A DNA stretch of 62,312 nt, from the NCBI GenBank assembly GCA_002723195.1, contig PBNR01000075.1:1-62312 (forward strand), written 5' to 3'. A program made the translations under genes and the position numbers. The DNA is from Gammaproteobacteria bacterium. Its GTDB lineage: Bacteria; Pseudomonadota; Gammaproteobacteria; Pseudomonadales; Pseudohongiellaceae. The notes beneath the pieces are model-generated. The model did not search any database. It was not told where the DNA came from and saw nothing but the letters and a program-made list of their open reading frames with translations. Below are positions 5,366-33,016 of the stretch, piece by piece; position 1 is the first letter of the stretch, and each line of letters begins with the position of its first letter.

Positions 5366-6133
5366 TTACGACCAAGCCGGACAGATTTTTTTGTAAGCAC
5401 ACCAATTGCAAAGTGGACCTGTTTTTGTGGGAAAGACTCCTGTTTCACAACCTTTAACTACTCCATCCCATGTTTGATTTATAAGTTTTAGTACTGTGCG
5501 CCTACGTTCTTTTGTTGGTGCATATTTTTTACGTTCTTTAAACTTCACATACATTATTTCAGCATTATCGACTTGAATGTCGTTTAACCGTTCAAGCATC
5601 TCTACATACAGAATAATCTGGAATACCTTGTCACCTTCGTACTGTGGCTTAGAAACTTTTCCTGTTTTGTAATCTGCAACTGTCAAAGATCCGTCATGCT
5701 CTTCTATCCACCTGTCGATATATCCCAACAGGGGAACACCGTCTATCTCAGCCGAAAACTTGTCTTCTATCCCACGTATTTTTACTTTTGTGGGGTCTTC
5801 CATAGAAAAAATGTTTTCGACACACCACCAAGCACTCCAACGAAAATCATTAACTTTCTGATCTGTTCTTATCCCTATCAAAGCAACTTCTTCTTTAAAT
5901 TTGTTCTCCCATAAATTTCGGGCAATTGTTCGTGCTTCTGCAATGATTCTTTCTTCAGGAGGAAGTGCATAAAACTCTTCTAATATCTCATGCACAAAAG
6001 AACCCATAATCATGGGTTGCGTCGTTGGTTCGGGAATTTTATCTAGACGAGAAAACCGATACCTTAAAGGACACTGTTCATACGTGGAGATACTCGAAGC
6101 AGATAGGTGAGTGGGCAGTTCTAAAGATGTCAT
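5366..6133 (-). CDS. PD-(D/E)XK exonuclease, RecB/Cas4-like
   Basis: LSASSISTYEQCPLRYRFSRLDKIP...GSFVHEILEEFY...LLGYIDRWIEE...VADYKTGK...CNWCAYKKICP (PDDEXK_1 motifs plus Cys cluster). Confidence 0.92.
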   Translation of the reverse strand: MTSLELPTHLSASSISTYEQCPLRYRFSRLDKIPEPTTQPMIMGSFVHEILEEFYALPPEERIIAEARTIARNLWENKFKEEVALIGIRTDQKVNDFRWSAWWCVENIFSMEDPTKVKIRGIEDKFSAEIDGVPLLGYIDRWIEEHDGSLTVADYKTGKVSKPQYEGDKVFQIILYVEMLERLNDIQVDNAEIMYVKFKERKKYAPTKERRRTVLKLINQTWDGVVKGCETGVFPTKTGPLCNWCAYKKICPAWS

Positions 6134-6271: not shown

Positions 6272-6383
6272 GCTTTCCTTTCTTCTTTGGCCATGGCTTA
6301 GATTCGACTTCTACTCCTCTAGCCTTCAAAATATGGTTTCGGGTAAAACAATCTTTACCTTGGTTACGAATGTCATCATTCAT
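6249..6383 (-). CDS. small basic hypothetical protein (44 aa)
   Basis: Reverse-strand ATG at 6383: MNDDIRNQGKDCFTRNHILKARGVEVESKPWPKKKGKRVAKSTR*; overlaps the annealase end and the next small ORF. Confidence 0.4.
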   Translation of the reverse strand: MNDDIRNQGKDCFTRNHILKARGVEVESKPWPKKKGKRVAKSTR

Positions 6384-7020
6384 AGTTGCCTTCTATAGTT
6401 TCTCCGCCCATCATCAAACGTATTACTTCAACTTGGCATTGTGCAAAGTCGTCTGAATCCATGGAACGATTGGGTTTTTCATCTTTAAAACCTTGTTCCT
6501 TAAACCATTCACGGAACTGGTTCTTTTTCTCATCATCCAGAGACTTGAAATTCTCAGCAAATACTTGCCAATGTTCCCCTTCTACTGGATAAGACTCTTC
6601 AATATCTAATGCTAGTGATTCTTCACTTCGTGCAAGATGCAAGGCAATACCGAAGCCTTGACATGCTTTTTTGAAAGCATCTGATGAGGCTGATTTGAAG
6701 TCGTTGCCGAGATCCATTACTCCGCCTTGTTTCATCATTTTGACTTTTGCACCGCCGTATGCTTCTTTAACAGCCATTTGTCCATCAACATTGGCTGTTA
6801 CTCGGACATGAGCGATAACACTATCTTTGTATTCAGGTTGAACATGACATTTGAGGATTTCGTAATTCCAATTACCTGTTCCTAAAACTTTGTTAAGTCT
6901 CGCTATGTACTCTGCGACAGCGACATAATCGAAACTTCTTCCACCGACAGATCTTTGGTAAATCAGTATGTCGTCAAATGGCTCTGCTAATTGTTCTGCT
7001 TGCGTTTTTTCACCCATCAT
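6376..7020 (-). CDS. Rad52/22-family single-strand annealing protein
   Basis: GGRSFDYVAVAEYIARLNKVLGTGNWNYEI...AVKEAYGGAKV...MDLGNDFKSASSDAFKKACQGFGIALHLAR is the Rad52-type core. Confidence 0.88.
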   Translation of the reverse strand: MMGEKTQAEQLAEPFDDILIYQRSVGGRSFDYVAVAEYIARLNKVLGTGNWNYEILKCHVQPEYKDSVIAHVRVTANVDGQMAVKEAYGGAKVKMMKQGGVMDLGNDFKSASSDAFKKACQGFGIALHLARSEESLALDIEESYPVEGEHWQVFAENFKSLDDEKKNQFREWFKEQGFKDEKPNRSMDSDDFAQCQVEVIRLMMGGETIEGNYE

Positions 7021-7504
7021 TACTCCTATAAATTAAATTAGTTATTGGATCTTGAACTTCACAGTATTCATCAGGGTCGATACCCAATTCTTTTAATGCT
7101 GTAACCCTCCAATAGGAAGGTGAAGCATACTCAAGAAGTTCTTGAATTTGTTCCTCTGCCGACTTCATAAGTTCTCCTGTGTCCATGTCGATACTTCGAT
7201 CATGTATTTTTTTGGCAACCTGTGAAGCAAGTTCTTTGTGATCCCATTTTTTACGAGGATTACCAGTTTTAGTTTCAACTGAAAATTGTTGTGTGCTCAT
7301 TGGGGTGTGATCCCAATCGGAATCTAAAATTAAATCAGAGACTTCTTTCTGAAGTAACTGAATATCCTTTTTTGCTTGGTTGAGCATCCAACCTAGATAC
7401 ATCAAACGAACAAGCCGTTCGGGATCATCAGCAGTTTTTTCGTGAACGATAGCGTCATTCAAACGCATCAACGTTTCGTTTGTTTCTTCTTGGAGACCCA
7501 TCAA
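7010..7504 (-). CDS. hypothetical protein in the recombination operon
   Basis: 164-aa ORF overlapping the annealase gene; no family assigned. Confidence 0.7.
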   Translation of the reverse strand: MMGLQEETNETLMRLNDAIVHEKTADDPERLVRLMYLGWMLNQAKKDIQLLQKEVSDLILDSDWDHTPMSTQQFSVETKTGNPRKKWDHKELASQVAKKIHDRSIDMDTGELMKSAEEQIQELLEYASPSYWRVTALKELGIDPDEYCEVQDPITNLIYRSNDG

Positions 7505-7576
7505 TTCTCTCCTCGGTTAGTAGTAGATAGTGACTCTAAAATATCATTGTTGTCATTTTAAAGCAAGGATGTGACA

Positions 7577-7590
7577 ATTAACCAGTTAAT
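7577..7590. promoter_or_regulatory. operator-like dyad ATTAAC-CA-GTTAAT
   Basis: Perfect 6+6 inverted repeat with 2-nt centre in the divergent gap upstream of 7504(-) and 7661(+); GAC/GTC flanks extend it with a one-base bulge. Confidence 0.45.
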
Positions 7591-7660
7591 GTCGCACGAT
7601 ACCACCATCCCCGTCTTGTATATTGGTTGACTGGTTTTGGCACATGACAAGAAAGAAGTA

Positions 7661-7798
7661 ATGAAAACTAGAATAAAAAAAGTATTGAAGACATTAAAAC
7701 CCCGTCCGCATTACAGCCAGTACTACTTGACAGACCGACGGTCTTGGTCAGACAGTTACGAACGAGAAATCGCAAAATATTTTTGGAGCAGGTTTTAA
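7661..7798 (+). CDS. small basic/aromatic hypothetical protein (45 aa)
   Basis: MKTRIKKVLKTLKPRPHYSQYYLTDRRSWSDSYEREIAKYFWSRF*, preceded by GAAAGAAG and followed at once by a terminator; not in the ORF track. Confidence 0.5.
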   Translation: MKTRIKKVLKTLKPRPHYSQYYLTDRRSWSDSYEREIAKYFWSRF

Positions 7799-7799
7799 C

Positions 7800-7820
7800 C
7801 GAACACTTGTTCGTTTTTTT
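7800..7820 (+). terminator. rho-independent terminator
   Basis: CGAAC-actt-GTTCG-TTTTTTT directly after the stop of the 45-aa ORF. Confidence 0.7.
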
Positions 7821-7879
7821 GCTCTTTTTATAACTAAGTCTTTTAAAAACTTATATTTTTTAATAATTTTAGTCGTTAC

Positions 7880-8272
7880 TCTGTGATTTATGAGTTGAGA
7901 GTTTTTGGCCCTCCAAAAGGAGAAGCCAAAATTTACTCCGTATCATTATTGAGCGGTCGTAACAGGCACCTAGTATTCCGAATAAAAGAATGTGTCGGTC
8001 AGCGGGCATCCACATTTTGTCCAATTTTGCACGATCGCGATCGTACAAATATTTCATTCTGGTATTAGTGCTGACTGCTGCCAAGTTCCACCACAAAATG
8101 TAGTTCAGTGCGCCTCACCATAAGGCGTGAAAATCCAAGCCCTTCTTACGGGCGAATGACGCTGGTTAGGCGACAGGCTGTTTCACAGTGTCCTTGCCGT
8201 GGTGTCACTGAGCCAGATCGGATTTTTATTGTAGAAGCCGACCATACTCTCACAGGTTGAGGGTTGTCAACC
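7880..8272. other. candidate structured noncoding RNA or packaging-signal region
   Basis: About 400 nt with several hairpins by eye: TTTTGGC-c-CTCC-aaaa-GGAG-aa-GCCAAAA (7903-7931), CGCCT/AGGCG (8111-8127), GCCC/GGGC (8139-8153), GGCT..CAGTG/CACTG-AGCC (8176-8214), GGTTGA/TCAACC (8255-8272), plus the palindrome ACGATCGCGATCGT (8031-8044). Confidence 0.45.
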
Positions 8273-9576
8273 TAAACGATGATAGAAATTCTGCCTTTTT
8301 GTCGGTGACCTAATCCAGCGACCTCGTTAAAGCATCCTGAAGTGGCATCCACTTGGTCATCATGCCAACTTGCTTCGGGGAACGTAGCCATTTCATCAAG
8401 GAAGTCTGAGATCCATGGACCTCGTACTAGCCGCACATTGTTGTTTGCTACGGCGGCGGCAAATGGGCGTGCTCTTGTAGTTTTGTCTCCTGTGGATCGT
8501 ATCCCCATAAAGTCAGATCCCGGTAAAACGTAACGAGCGTATTGGTCTATAAGATTTTTACCGCTACTACCCGGTTCCATTTCCATTCTGATTGGAACAT
8601 GTGGTCCATCTACTTGAGCAGTTTCCGCAATGAGACGTTCAATGTCTGCACCAGTCTTTCTTACTCGTTGTATGTCAATTATATAAAAGATGCCTTTGTC
8701 GAATGCTCCCAACACACCAACAGTGAAGTCGGGGTCGGGGTTGACGTGTGAAGGTTCTGTTGCGGCGAGATCCCAAAAGCGACACCATTCTGGATTGGTG
8801 AAATCAGGAAGGTCTGTTGGTTCTTGGATTATGAAAGATTCCCTGTTGAAGAGTGAGCCTGAAGTCACTGCCCACCAGTCGCCATTCTCTAGTCGCTGTC
8901 TTTCTATCGGATCTATCTCTTGTAGCGCCCGCCGGTATGAGTCAGGATCAATGCCGGGATTGTCATCTAAGAAACTAGGAACAAAAATTCTGTCGTCATT
9001 GTCTTCTGCTTCTACGATAAATCTTTGACGAACCCAGTTTGGTGCAGGGTTGGATGCCGCACGCATTCTCAATGGAACTTCTGCTAGAGGTCCAGAGTTG
9101 GGTTTACGCAAACGAGAGAAGAGATAACGATAATCAAATTCTCTTATTTCAGTAACCTCATCCATTCCGATAAATTGAAACTCGGATGACTTGTATCTAA
9201 GATAGTCATTTTGATTATTTAAGTATCCAAAAGTGACTCTTGCGCCAGATGGGAATGTGGCTACATAAGTTGAGCCGTTCCATTTTATTTCGTCGTGTAC
9301 CTTCACCCATGAAAGAAATCTATCCATAAGAGCACCGGGTAGTGAGAGGTCGGCATAGGTGCGACGGAAAAGAATAGCAGAGTAATCAGGGATATCTACA
9401 TATTGCAGTGCCGCCATCAGAAGAGCAGAAGACTTCCCTCCACCTGCGGCACCTCCGAATAATGCTTCGAGAGCGGTAGATCTGAGGTATGTTTTTTGTG
9501 TTAAAGAAGGTTCTTCGGGGCAATATATTGGAGGCTTTGGTTGAAGGAACTCATAGATGTCTGTCCAATCGGTCAT
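8272..9576 (-). CDS. terL: terminase large subunit
   Basis: Walker A FGGAAGGGKSSAL, Walker B-like QFIGMDEVTEI, nuclease motifs RFWDLAATEPS...DPDFTVGV and WHDDQVDATSG. Confidence 0.96.
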   Translation of the reverse strand: MTDWTDIYEFLQPKPPIYCPEEPSLTQKTYLRSTALEALFGGAAGGGKSSALLMAALQYVDIPDYSAILFRRTYADLSLPGALMDRFLSWVKVHDEIKWNGSTYVATFPSGARVTFGYLNNQNDYLRYKSSEFQFIGMDEVTEIREFDYRYLFSRLRKPNSGPLAEVPLRMRAASNPAPNWVRQRFIVEAEDNDDRIFVPSFLDDNPGIDPDSYRRALQEIDPIERQRLENGDWWAVTSGSLFNRESFIIQEPTDLPDFTNPEWCRFWDLAATEPSHVNPDPDFTVGVLGAFDKGIFYIIDIQRVRKTGADIERLIAETAQVDGPHVPIRMEMEPGSSGKNLIDQYARYVLPGSDFMGIRSTGDKTTRARPFAAAVANNNVRLVRGPWISDFLDEMATFPEASWHDDQVDATSGCFNEVAGLGHRQKGRISIIV

Positions 9577-9797: not shown

Positions 9798-11996
9798 ATG
9801 GCATGGAATACAAGTAATAAAGCGTTAGGCGGAGGGGATAAAAAGTCCGTTTCTATTGGTGCCCCAATATCTTACAACTCAGGAATTACTGGCAAGCCCT
9901 ACTCTGATGGATGGGACATAGAACGTGCCTATCGTGAGGGTTTAGGAAAGGTTACTTGGGTATATAGGGCTATTGATGCTATTGCAAGTAATCAAGCAAG
10001 GCTTCCTATTATGTTCCTTGAGGACAACTCCCCGTATGGGGAACGAGTCCCACGGGAAAAAGAGAACAAAGAATTAACGACTCTTTTAAACCAACGTACT
10101 AATGATGGTGAAAGTTCTTTTGCTTTTCGTTATCGACTTTCATCTCAATTATTGATGAGTACTCGTGGGGTGTTCATAGAAATTGTTAGGGGTCGTGGTG
10201 GGACACCTGTTGCTTTGCATTTGTTACCCCCACAAAGCACGGCTCCAGTTCCAGATCAGAAAAAGTTTGTTTCTTCTTTTGAAGTAGAATTACCCGGAGG
10301 TAAGAAACAGAGGATTAATCCTAAGAATGTAATTTGGATTCGTCGTCCACATCCGCTTGATCCTTATTTGTCAATGACACCTATGGAATCTGCTGGTGTG
10401 GCAATTGAAACTGAACAATTGGCAAAACTTTATAATCGAAATTTTTTATTAAATGATGGTCGTCCGGGTGGGCTTTTAGTTTTACGAGGTCAGATAGATG
10501 AAGATGACAAGCAAGAACTTGCGGCGCGGTTTAGGGGGAATCTTTCTAGGACTGGTGGGATCGGTGTTATCTCATCCGATGATGGAGCAGATTTCGTTGA
10601 CACAGCGGCAAGTCCGAGAGATGCGGCGTGGGACACGCTCCGCCAAATCACCAAGGAAGAGATCCTTGCAGCATTTGGAGTGCCGGAATCAATAATAGGA
10701 AATGCTTCAGGTCGAACATTTGCTAATGCTGCTGAAGAAGGTCGTGTGTTTTGGGGTGAAACCATGGACCCGCACATCGAACTAATTTCAAGAGGACTTG
10801 ATGTATTGGATGATAAGTATTACATCACATTTGATACGTCTACTGTGCCGATATTAGAAATGGGTAAACAAGAACGTGATAGGTATTATTTGAACGAAGT
10901 TCAACAAGGTCTTATTACTCCTAATGAATATCGTGAAAGAACAGGAAAAGTAAAAGTAGATTCGTATCTTGCTGATTCCATGTTGGCTAGTCCTAACTTG
11001 GCACCTATTGGTAATACTGAAGAGGCAATGCCTAAAGAAGAAGCAATGCCTGCCGCACCGGGTGGTGTTCCGGGTGCTCCGGGTGCTCCTGCACCTGAGG
11101 GTCAAGCACCTACACCTGAAGGTCAAGCGGCTCCTCCAATACCAGAACCCAATGAAATGGCAGAACCAGACTTGCCGGATGGCGCTTTCCCTAAAGATGG
11201 AGTGCCAGAAGATATAGAAATTAAGAGGTTTGATCTAGAGGAATCTTGGGAAACCAAAGCCGCTCAAGACGTTGACCGTTGGGAAGCAATATTCAAGCGT
11301 TCACTCGAAAGATACTTTGAGCGTCAAGAACGAGTAGTAACAGAGAAGGTAAGCGGAGCAAAAGCAAAACGTCTTTTAAACACAGGAGAACTTAAAGTCG
11401 AAAACATCTTTGATATGGATGTTTGGAACAAGCAGTTACGAGAAGATCTTGGACCTGTAATCGAAGGCGCAATGATGGAGGCTTCCACCACGGCATTAAA
11501 GGAATCAGACGAGAAAATTGATACTTCAGAAGAAGAAGTTCAAGAATATGTCTCTTCTCAGTTGGATCGTGTAGAGAATGTCAATGAAACAACAAAGAAA
11601 GAACTAGCGGCGGCGATTCTTTTAGCCGCTTTATTGGTCGGTGATGATGAAAGTTCTGCTCCAATTTCTGCAAAAATAGCCCTTTTAGGGACAAGTGTTG
11701 CCGCAGTTTTTGCTGCTTTATTAACAAAAAGACTGCTTATGACCTCAGAAGTTGAGAGTAATGCGGCTTACAATGCTGGATTATTCTTTGGTGGAACTCG
11801 TGCGGGAGCATTGAATAAGACGTGGATTACCCGAAAAGATGCAAAAGTACGGGCTGGGCACGCTGTTATCGACAGTAAAACAGTGGATATTGCGGATAGT
11901 TTTAAATCAGGATCAATTTTAAGGTTCCCCGGTGATCCTTTAGCGCCACCTGAACTTGTTATTAACTGTCGTTGCTTAATCAAGTTTGGAGAATAG
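9798..11996 (+). CDS. portal protein fused to C-terminal MuF-like head morphogenesis domain
   Basis: HK97-type portal (WVYRAIDAIASNQARLPIMF...ITKEEILAAFGVPESIIGN...ANAAEEGRVFW); C-term NAGLFFGGTRAGALNKTWITRKDAKVRAGHAVIDSKTV...PGDPLAPPELVINCRCLI is MuF-like. Confidence 0.93.
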   Translation: MAWNTSNKALGGGDKKSVSIGAPISYNSGITGKPYSDGWDIERAYREGLGKVTWVYRAIDAIASNQARLPIMFLEDNSPYGERVPREKENKELTTLLNQRTNDGESSFAFRYRLSSQLLMSTRGVFIEIVRGRGGTPVALHLLPPQSTAPVPDQKKFVSSFEVELPGGKKQRINPKNVIWIRRPHPLDPYLSMTPMESAGVAIETEQLAKLYNRNFLLNDGRPGGLLVLRGQIDEDDKQELAARFRGNLSRTGGIGVISSDDGADFVDTAASPRDAAWDTLRQITKEEILAAFGVPESIIGNASGRTFANAAEEGRVFWGETMDPHIELISRGLDVLDDKYYITFDTSTVPILEMGKQERDRYYLNEVQQGLITPNEYRERTGKVKVDSYLADSMLASPNLAPIGNTEEAMPKEEAMPAAPGGVPGAPGAPAPEGQAPTPEGQAAPPIPEPNEMAEPDLPDGAFPKDGVPEDIEIKRFDLEESWETKAAQDVDRWEAIFKRSLERYFERQERVVTEKVSGAKAKRLLNTGELKVENIFDMDVWNKQLREDLGPVIEGAMMEASTTALKESDEKIDTSEEEVQEYVSSQLDRVENVNETTKKELAAAILLAALLVGDDESSAPISAKIALLGTSVAAVFAALLTKRLLMTSEVESNAAYNAGLFFGGTRAGALNKTWITRKDAKVRAGHAVIDSKTVDIADSFKSGSILRFPGDPLAPPELVINCRCLIKFGE

Positions 11997-31114: not shown

Positions 31115-33016
31115 TTATCTGATTGGGCAGGCTCCTGTGGCACAATCATCATCTAAGAGTTCACTCATTCCAGCATTAATAAGAATTTTTTCGTCATTAA
31201 CCTGTGAAAGCATTTCTTGGTATTTATCTAAAGTTATTTCTTCTAAAGGTGCTTGTTCAAAACCGTGTTCGCTGTGAAGAAGGAAAGAAACAGATTTCAT
31301 TGTTTCCCAGTTGATTCTTAAGAAGTCTTGAACACTTTCAAGTTCTCCGGGTTTGATGTAAACAGTTACTGAAACAGCGTTATCTGCCCATTCTTCTTGT
31401 AAGCGACATTGAAGTTTAAGTTGATCAACTGCGGTCATCTCTTCAGCAAGAACAGTTCCTTCGGGAAACTCACAAGGGAATTCGACAACTTTTGTTCTGT
31501 TGTCGTTGTTAACCCATTCAACGTGGTAGCCACGCTGTTCGCAGTAATCCAATAGTGGATCGGTAGAAGCCATGCGTACTCTACGGATGTGATGTTTGCT
31601 ATATCCGGGGTGTCCGCCGGGTGTTACACCACCGAGAAGGCTTAATGTTCCACTTGGTTTAACTGTTGTTAAGCGAACTGAAGTTGGCCATTCTTTGTAA
31701 GAAGACCAGAAAGCATCAAAGTCATAAAGTGCTTCATAGGCGGGTGAAAGCCAATCAAGTTTGTCTAATGCTTGTGTTACACCAGTAACACCAAGTCCAA
31801 GACGCATATTTTTGCTTGTAATTTCATCTGACTCACGATCTAAATAAGGAAGAGCCGCTACAGCCTTTTGAATTTTGTAAAGAAGTTTTGAAATGTCAAT
31901 TAGTTCTTCTTGGCTTTCAATGTTTGGCAACATTATTTCTGCAAGATTGCAGGATTCACGGTTTGCAAGTCCAATTTCTGCACATGGATTTGTGCCTTCT
32001 ATTGTTTTGTCTTCACGAACTTCAAAACGACGGGCGTATTTTCTTGAAGCATCCAAGTTGAATAATCCGTAAGGTTCACCGTTTCCTTTATACCCTTCCC
32101 AGAACACGTCTGGAATACCTTCTATGTCAGAGGTGACAATGCTGTTGTTTGACATTGCACGATGGTATGGAACATTTCCTAAGTCCCATCTTTTTGCGTG
32201 GAGATAGTCAATATCGAATGGGCTACCAAGAGCAATCTCTGCACTTCTGCGGACATTGCCTGCTACGACAACTGATCCAATGATGTTGCAAATATCCAAA
32301 ACTTCGACTGCGCGAAGATTTCGACCTATAGCCCCATTAAGGACAGCGCAAATTTTACTTACACCTTCTACAAGAATGCCCGGTCCAGATGCGGTTCCGC
32401 CAAATGTGCGAATAGGTTCTCCTGCCGCTCTAATTAGTTGTGTCGAATACGTGAATTCTGTTGGGTCGTTCTTGTCTCCTAAGTAAGTTTTTACTGCACG
32501 GAGGAGACACTCTGCCCAACCTTCTCTTTTGTCTGGAACAATGTAATCAGCATCGGCAACGTCATGGTTATCCACGGCACCTTGACGTACTACGCCAAGA
32601 CGAATTGGATTAAGGACAGAAAAGCCAACACCTCCACCAAGCATGAGGCGTTCAAACATCCAAGAAAAATCTTCTGGTTTTTGAATATCGACAAACCAGC
32701 AATTACAAAGGCTGTCTCCACCTAAACGAAAGTTGTTGGGTGTTCCCAACTGCCAGAGCATTCGTCCACCGGGCATACCTTTTAAATTAAACATGTAATC
32801 GAACATGCGTTCGGCTTCTTCGTCGCTTAGTTCTGCTCCGATTTCATTGGCACCATCGACTACACGTCTACAGGTCTCCCACCATTCTTCTGTTTGACCT
32901 GTGTCTTCATCAACAATGCGTGCATACGTTCGTTTATAGACAATGTATCCAAGTCCGTTAAACCCCCAAGGGGCTGCTTTTTGAGTATAGGGTTCTAAGA
33001 ATTTTTCGTTAAGCAT
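31115..33016 (-). CDS. nrdJ: adenosylcobalamin-dependent (class II, monomeric RTPR type) ribonucleotide reductase
   Basis: GGRMLWQLGTPNN...DSLCNCWFV, GGGVGFSVL, EGTNPCAEIGLANRESCNLAEI, KPSGTLSLLGGVTPG, C-terminal DDDCATGACPIR. Confidence 0.95.
   Translation of the reverse strand: MLNEKFLEPYTQKAAPWGFNGLGYIVYKRTYARIVDEDTGQTEEWWETCRRVVDGANEIGAELSDEEAERMFDYMFNLKGMPGGRMLWQLGTPNNFRLGGDSLCNCWFVDIQKPEDFSWMFERLMLGGGVGFSVLNPIRLGVVRQGAVDNHDVADADYIVPDKREGWAECLLRAVKTYLGDKNDPTEFTYSTQLIRAAGEPIRTFGGTASGPGILVEGVSKICAVLNGAIGRNLRAVEVLDICNIIGSVVVAGNVRRSAEIALGSPFDIDYLHAKRWDLGNVPYHRAMSNNSIVTSDIEGIPDVFWEGYKGNGEPYGLFNLDASRKYARRFEVREDKTIEGTNPCAEIGLANRESCNLAEIMLPNIESQEELIDISKLLYKIQKAVAALPYLDRESDEITSKNMRLGLGVTGVTQALDKLDWLSPAYEALYDFDAFWSSYKEWPTSVRLTTVKPSGTLSLLGGVTPGGHPGYSKHHIRRVRMASTDPLLDYCEQRGYHVEWVNNDNRTKVVEFPCEFPEGTVLAEEMTAVDQLKLQCRLQEEWADNAVSVTVYIKPGELESVQDFLRINWETMKSVSFLLHSEHGFEQAPLEEITLDKYQEMLSQVNDEKILINAGMSELLDDDCATGACPIR

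Follow-up and report, generated by a model that had tools for sequence, protein, structure and literature searches.

The window, that is, the whole stretch of DNA analysed here, is an entire contig of 62.3 kb, from a phage, within a binned genome (G000:C75), along which the open reading frames (ORFs) are closely packed except for a gap at positions 7505–8271. This gap is flanked by an ORF at 7010–7504 and by the ORF at 8272–9576, which encodes the terminase large subunit (PHROG 979, E = 5.8e-100), both on the minus strand; the operon beyond the gap consists of the ORF at 7010–7504, a Rad52-like gene (6376–7020) and a RecB/Cas4-like nuclease gene (5366–6133). The sequence-only reading had drawn attention to a gap of about 770 nt beside the terminase, with consecutive stems and a 14 bp palindrome inside it; the gap is present in the ORF list, and both the stems and the palindrome are present in the sequence. 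The minus-strand fold of 7880–8272 gave a z-score of -2.89, with one of 100 shuffled sequences folding equally well, and the plus-strand fold gave a z-score of -1.82, with four of 100 equally good; models built from one sequence across all 393 nt were uninformative. Since single-sequence folding was just moderately better than that of the shuffles, conservation had to decide.

Terminase relatives in IMG/VR carry a similar block directly 3′ of the terminase gene. Across 25 distinct sequences (alignment A3), a nine-helix structure of 44 pairs is paired in 97.3% of cases, and 17 of the 44 pairs (75 cells) have changed on both sides, whereas controls with slid partners were paired in 40–49% of cases, with 0–5 pairs changed on both sides. 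The observed covariation score was reached by none of 500 shuffles, with the structure named from one relative, the 25 sequences being closely related and the null ignoring the tree. The comparison with related contigs that had been proposed as a check thus yielded strong covariation, and with a structure conserved in 25 relatives the block rises above the chance level of single-sequence folding. Compensatory changes occur in P1, P3, P4, P4a and P7, and P2 is invariant.

A protein-coding block could be argued from the ORFs at 7869–8096 (minus strand) and 7883–8068 (plus strand), which are both open in the window. However, the indels of the relatives are not in multiples of three and shift the frame, no frame is free of stops across the relatives, and neither ORF in the gap has a PHROG match, leaving protein coding with a negligible probability; conserved coding at 7869–8096, which the sequence-only reading had itself named as fatal to its proposal, is absent. 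The suggested search for GOLLD, ROOL and HEARO gave no match at the gathering threshold or at E ≤ 10, and every other Rfam family was excluded with them: cmscan with Rfam 15, of the window at the gathering threshold and of 7400–8400 at E ≤ 10, returned no relevant match and two chance hits only. For the wider family described below, Rfam searches covering up to 16 loci likewise gave no relevant match. The window RNA is a new family, outside every family in Rfam.

Taken together, the gap very probably holds a stand-alone gene encoding a structured noncoding RNA, predicted on the minus strand with its own σ70-type promoter; this degree of confidence covers the RNA gene itself and not the packaging role discussed below. 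The putative promoter (8241–8270, minus strand) has a −35 hexamer TTGACA at 8270–8265, a spacer of 18 nt and a −10 hexamer TATGGT at 8246–8241, with a predicted start at around 8234. Its hexamers are kept in place in most of 18 relatives, with a spacer that varies in sequence, in forms such as TTGACA/T, 16–18 nt and TATGGT/TATAGT/TATGTT-like, with TAGGGT in L017 and TACGGT in L004. The RNA gene is predicted to span 7876–8234 on the minus strand, directly 3′ of the terminase large-subunit gene, giving an RNA of about 300–360 nt that is delimited at the 5′ end by the promoter and at the 3′ end by the point where conservation stops, at CAGAGTAA. This predicted 3′ end is uncertain, because the relatives showed no conserved terminator. 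The transcribed strand had been left undecided by the sequence-only reading; the minus strand, that of the terminase, can now be assigned, mainly from the promoter, with other strand evidence that is modest (G–U against A–C in paired cells is 34 to 12, and 12 to 12 when one column pair is removed).

Read from the 5′ side, the first helix of the predicted minus-strand RNA is P0, a variable hairpin seen by eye (CAGTG/CACTG, 8186–8210), whose variants, likewise read by eye and standing outside the formal count, include CTCGATG/CATCGAG in L007 and CACAG/CTGTG in L001. P1 (8157–8175) is a covarying stem with the 7 nt loop CTAACCA (8169–8163), in which one pair changes among C–G, G–C and U–A and another between C–G and U–A. 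It is followed by P2 (8139–8153), the invariant hairpin GCCC-GTAAGAA-GGGC after TTC, and by P3 (8111–8127), the hairpin CGCCT-TATGGTG-AGGCG, with changes on both sides in four of its five pairs. We propose a kissing contact in which TGGT (UGGU) of the P3 loop could pair with the ACCA found in that of P1. P4 (8012–8101) is formed by ACATTTTGT (8101–8093) and ACAAAATGT (8020–8012) around P4a, with changes on both sides in five of nine pairs, and P4a (8067–8092) is the hairpin GGTG-GA-ACT-TGGCAGC-AGT-CAG-CACT, the inner three pairs of which all covary. The alignment then shows a nearly invariant strand, GATGCCCGCTGACC (7997–8010), in which GCTG(A)CC (GCUGRCC) may form a proposed pseudoknot, one without covariation, with the P4a loop GGCAGC. 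P5 (7965–7991), seen by eye, pairs ATTCT with GGAAT and is followed by CTAGGTGCC; its compensatory changes (CGCTT/AAGCG, CTCCC/GGGAG and ACCCCC/GGAGGGT) were also read by eye, outside the formal count. The long 3′ hairpin P7 (7898–7939), GGAGT...TTTTGG...CTCC-TTTT-GGAG...CCAAAA.ACTCT, covaries. The window RNA has all of the features of its own family, namely the 7 nt P1 loop, UUC, GCCC-GUYAGAR-GGGC, P3, P4/P4a, GATGCCCGCTG, P7 and a position 3′ of the terminase.

The perfect 14 bp palindrome ACGATCGCGATCGT (8031–8044) had been counted as part of the structured block; it exists, but it lies outside the conserved fold, in a 24 nt insert (8026–8049) in the variable P4 loop that is limited to the window and L007/L053. 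As a lineage-specific insert, it was ruled out as a structural core or as an att/dif site. Near-identical copies are found in other marine phage contigs, even within genes, and form a dispersed palindromic element, (T)ACGATCGCGATCGTGCAAA, at intergenic sites, in the RNA loop and in ORFs of phage contigs: in G000:C45 (L286/L287) at 11716, 17925, 28205 and 33893, and in L028, L289, L290, L291 and L292. The copies within ORFs form Thr-rich linkers, for example in a peptidoglycan-hydrolase-like ORF in C45, and the element may represent a small mobile palindrome carried by phages.

A CGAACNNNNGTTCG box (7800–7813) lies in the interval from the RNA to the following gene and is either a LexA-like operator of the kind found in Gram-positives or the terminator hairpin of a small plus-strand ORF. 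Perfect boxes occur at 7800–7813 and at 32800–32813 and resemble the Gram-positive SOS operator; sites with at most one mismatch number six against 1.3 expected, and one box stands ahead of the Rad52/RecB-like operon. These boxes hint at an actinobacterial or similar host. The small ORF, which is antisense and lies outside the RNA (7661–7798, plus strand), encodes 45 amino acids (MKTRIKKVLKTLKPRPHY...EREIAKYFWSRF); it has relatives in L001, L007, L018 and L025 and a second form in L023 and L027, and is missing in other phages.

The RNA is kept by every clade relative at the level of at least 82% in the terminase for which the downstream DNA is covered. The same bin contains a second copy, with 80% identity, on contig C3 (G000:C3:12026–12739), where the terminase is 92% identical; this contig is a second, related phage contig of the binned genome. 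The phage contigs may be contaminants of the bin, because other genomes of the family lack the RNA. Further away, L048 and L092, which came from the pattern scan, likewise have the RNA directly 3′ of a terminase that is about 71% identical. Sister phages with terminases 68–71% identical have no block, their next gene usually following 22–85 bp after the terminase, and the window-family model found nothing in them. In a terminase tree the RNA-bearing rows are the window clade (16 rows, 99%) and L092/L180, so that one gain or loss of the module can suffice, with a root that is unsure because of a very long outgroup branch. Searches of INPHARED phages with the window-family, L048, L124, L142, L128, L110 and L143 elements as queries gave no RNA match, and a pattern search of GTDB genomes gave 43 matches, all of them weak and partial against the family profile. 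The model, run on 137 genomes of the family, 369 of the class and 399 of the phylum, recovered just the two copies of the window genome and weak matches; the class-level match L298 was rejected as lying inside an amidohydrolase-like gene, the phylum-level match L299 spans 51 positions only and L242 was rejected as a chance match. The E-values of R1 are rough.

Focusing on the P2 motif TTCGCCCGTNAGANGGGC, a scan of IMG/VR returned 92 stretches, among which the invariance of P2 is built into the search pattern; a P2 variant of the same length with one swapped pair gave six matches, all in genes. Many of the 92 matches belong to other phages, where a different stem, again with a 7 nt loop, stands ahead of the motif. 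A stem of at least four pairs precedes P2 in 30 of 71 distinct matches, compared with 10.8% at random positions, and the window family, with just three contiguous pairs in this stem, stands outside those 30. The window-family model scored 25–37 bits in eight loci (L127, L117, L119, L128, L143, L106, L122 and L124) against 11–18 bits in gene-internal matches. The same loop–loop pattern appeared in 38 of 48 pairs from a hand-made list, against 34.8 by permutation, with four of 5000 permutations as high. The 3′ parts differ between subfamilies; subfamilies A and B contain a pseudoknot-type hairpin with compensatory changes. Members of these two subfamilies are L103, L110, L118, L123, L127, L131, L143 and their relatives, in which the P1 loop CUUAUCA accompanies the hairpin AGCG-UGAU-CGCU and an H-type pseudoknot, GAGU-GGAACCGU-ACUC-AAA-ACGG, and the RNA sits between divergent head and early genes. 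Membership of a superfamily is likely for L127, L117, L143, L119, L106/L128 and L122/L124 and unproven beyond these, with L142, L114, L134, L139/L154, L111/L126 and L161 being less certain members of the wider family.

The 5′ domain (P1 with its 7 nt loop, UUC and the hairpin GCCC-GUYAGAR-GGGC) appears to recur in phages whose terminases are of at least three other types. Terminases of PHROG 38 and PHROG 9 were found near several of the wider-family RNAs (PHROGs, tblastn), at distances of 0.56 kb in L143, 0.66 kb in L124, 0.76 kb in L142, 0.95 kb in L117, 1.6–1.7 kb in L128/L106 and 3.0 kb in L127, and mostly 4–8 kb in subfamilies A and B; across related phages the 5′ module lies about 0.07–8 kb from the terminase, on either strand. 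Since subfamilies A and B have terminases akin to the L106 enzyme (about 53% identity), the independent lineages number about four or five, and with 4–8 kb between RNA and terminase in A/B the proximity is loose. The phage contig of L106 also carries, about 3 kb from the RNA, a Pistol ribozyme match (11841–11906, 64.6 bits) and a tRNA.

As to function, the RNA would be transcribed from its own σ70-type promoter just 3′ of the terminase large-subunit gene, its 300–360 nt or so would fold into P0–P5 and P7, probably with a P1–P3 loop–loop contact and a P4a pseudoknot, and it would act in trans, as RNA, by binding a phage or host protein. Tentatively, this partner may belong to the head and packaging programme, making the RNA a trans-acting member of the packaging/late module; such a partner is guessed because the RNA accompanies terminase genes of unrelated types. 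Given that terminase and head genes repeatedly accompany the RNA, a role in packaging or head assembly is our best single guess, possible rather than probable, and a regulatory or anti-host function has about the same likelihood. It is rather doubtful that the window RNA represents one branch of an undescribed superfamily which, in several lineages of tailed phages whose terminases are unrelated, serves as an RNA component of packaging or head assembly, outside the phi29 group. The regulatory or decoy alternative, that is, an RNA directed at the host (an sRNA sponge, or an inhibitor of host RNA polymerase or of defence) for which the terminase site is merely a tolerated insertion point, shares the RNA gene with our preferred reading and differs in function. 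In its favour, the module carries its own promoter and separates two genes that stand side by side in sister phages, the terminase is 4–8 kb away in A/B, and compact pseudoknotted RNAs are often protein-binding, whereas retention in every clade member with data, with no patchiness, and the repeated nearness to terminases of unrelated types speak against it; we regard it as a possible explanation, short of a probable one.

The RNA could also be a cis-acting leader of the following operon, for processive antitermination as in HK022 put or for sensing a metabolite or protein. In the window a promoter immediately precedes the RNA, which is oriented towards this operon, the 5′ modules of L142 and L124 point into the gene cluster with the terminase, and in subfamily A a promoter-like TTGAAC-16-TATAAA lies upstream (by eye) and early genes are faced. 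However, sequences resembling promoters and LexA sites, together with the antisense small ORF in some relatives, intervene before the next gene, the distance to which varies; sister phages have the same operon without the RNA, put is much smaller, and L106/L128 have no operon in the same direction behind it. As the RNA of L106/L128 opposes the genes on both sides and the window RNA would have its own promoter, an RNA working in trans is a better fit than a leader, which we consider unlikely. Packaging sites are often found near terminase genes, and the adjoining terminase would agree with a pac or cos site in which the hairpins are DNA palindromes read by the enzyme. Nevertheless, whole helices change sequence with pairing kept, a promoter is present, no array of repeated binding sites was found in the block, its sole true palindrome is a recent insert and the entire block is missing from related phages. 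Because the conserved object is RNA-like, with compensatory pairs and a promoter, and because the distance and strand of the 5′ module relative to the terminase vary, a pac or cos site gains nothing from these data and is very improbable. The sequence-only reading had offered a conserved noncoding RNA or a packaging site; its first half stands, on covariation, promoter and absence of coding, and its second half gains no support, the conserved object being RNA-like.

A new family of large structured RNAs is seldom found in phages. A compact RNA with a defined promoter and fold, a mapped neighbourhood and several sister subfamilies makes direct tests practical. GOLLD and ROOL are large, ornate, pseudoknotted noncoding RNAs of phages, still without a known function (PMC12286853). 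The window RNA is similarly noncoding, structured and phage-encoded, but it has no Rfam match at E ≤ 10 and measures about 300–360 nt compared with more than 800 nt for many GOLLD RNAs; moreover, GOLLD and ROOL are often near tRNA islands, whereas tRNA genes were sought in the window and none was found. HK022 put, a hairpin pair of about 70 nt that acts in cis on the nascent transcript, resembles the window RNA in that hairpins of a phage RNA directly follow a promoter; the window RNA greatly exceeds it in size, and members of its wider family in some phages have no operon behind them. The pRNA of phi29, a member of a group of phages with protein-primed replication, is likewise a phage-encoded structured RNA, and a similar role would agree with the link to packaging genes, although the window RNA differs in architecture and size and matches no packaging-RNA model in Rfam. 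If the terminase link reflects function, RNA-assisted packaging would be extended beyond phi29; even otherwise, the finding adds a family of RNAs in marine phages that annotation at present overlooks.
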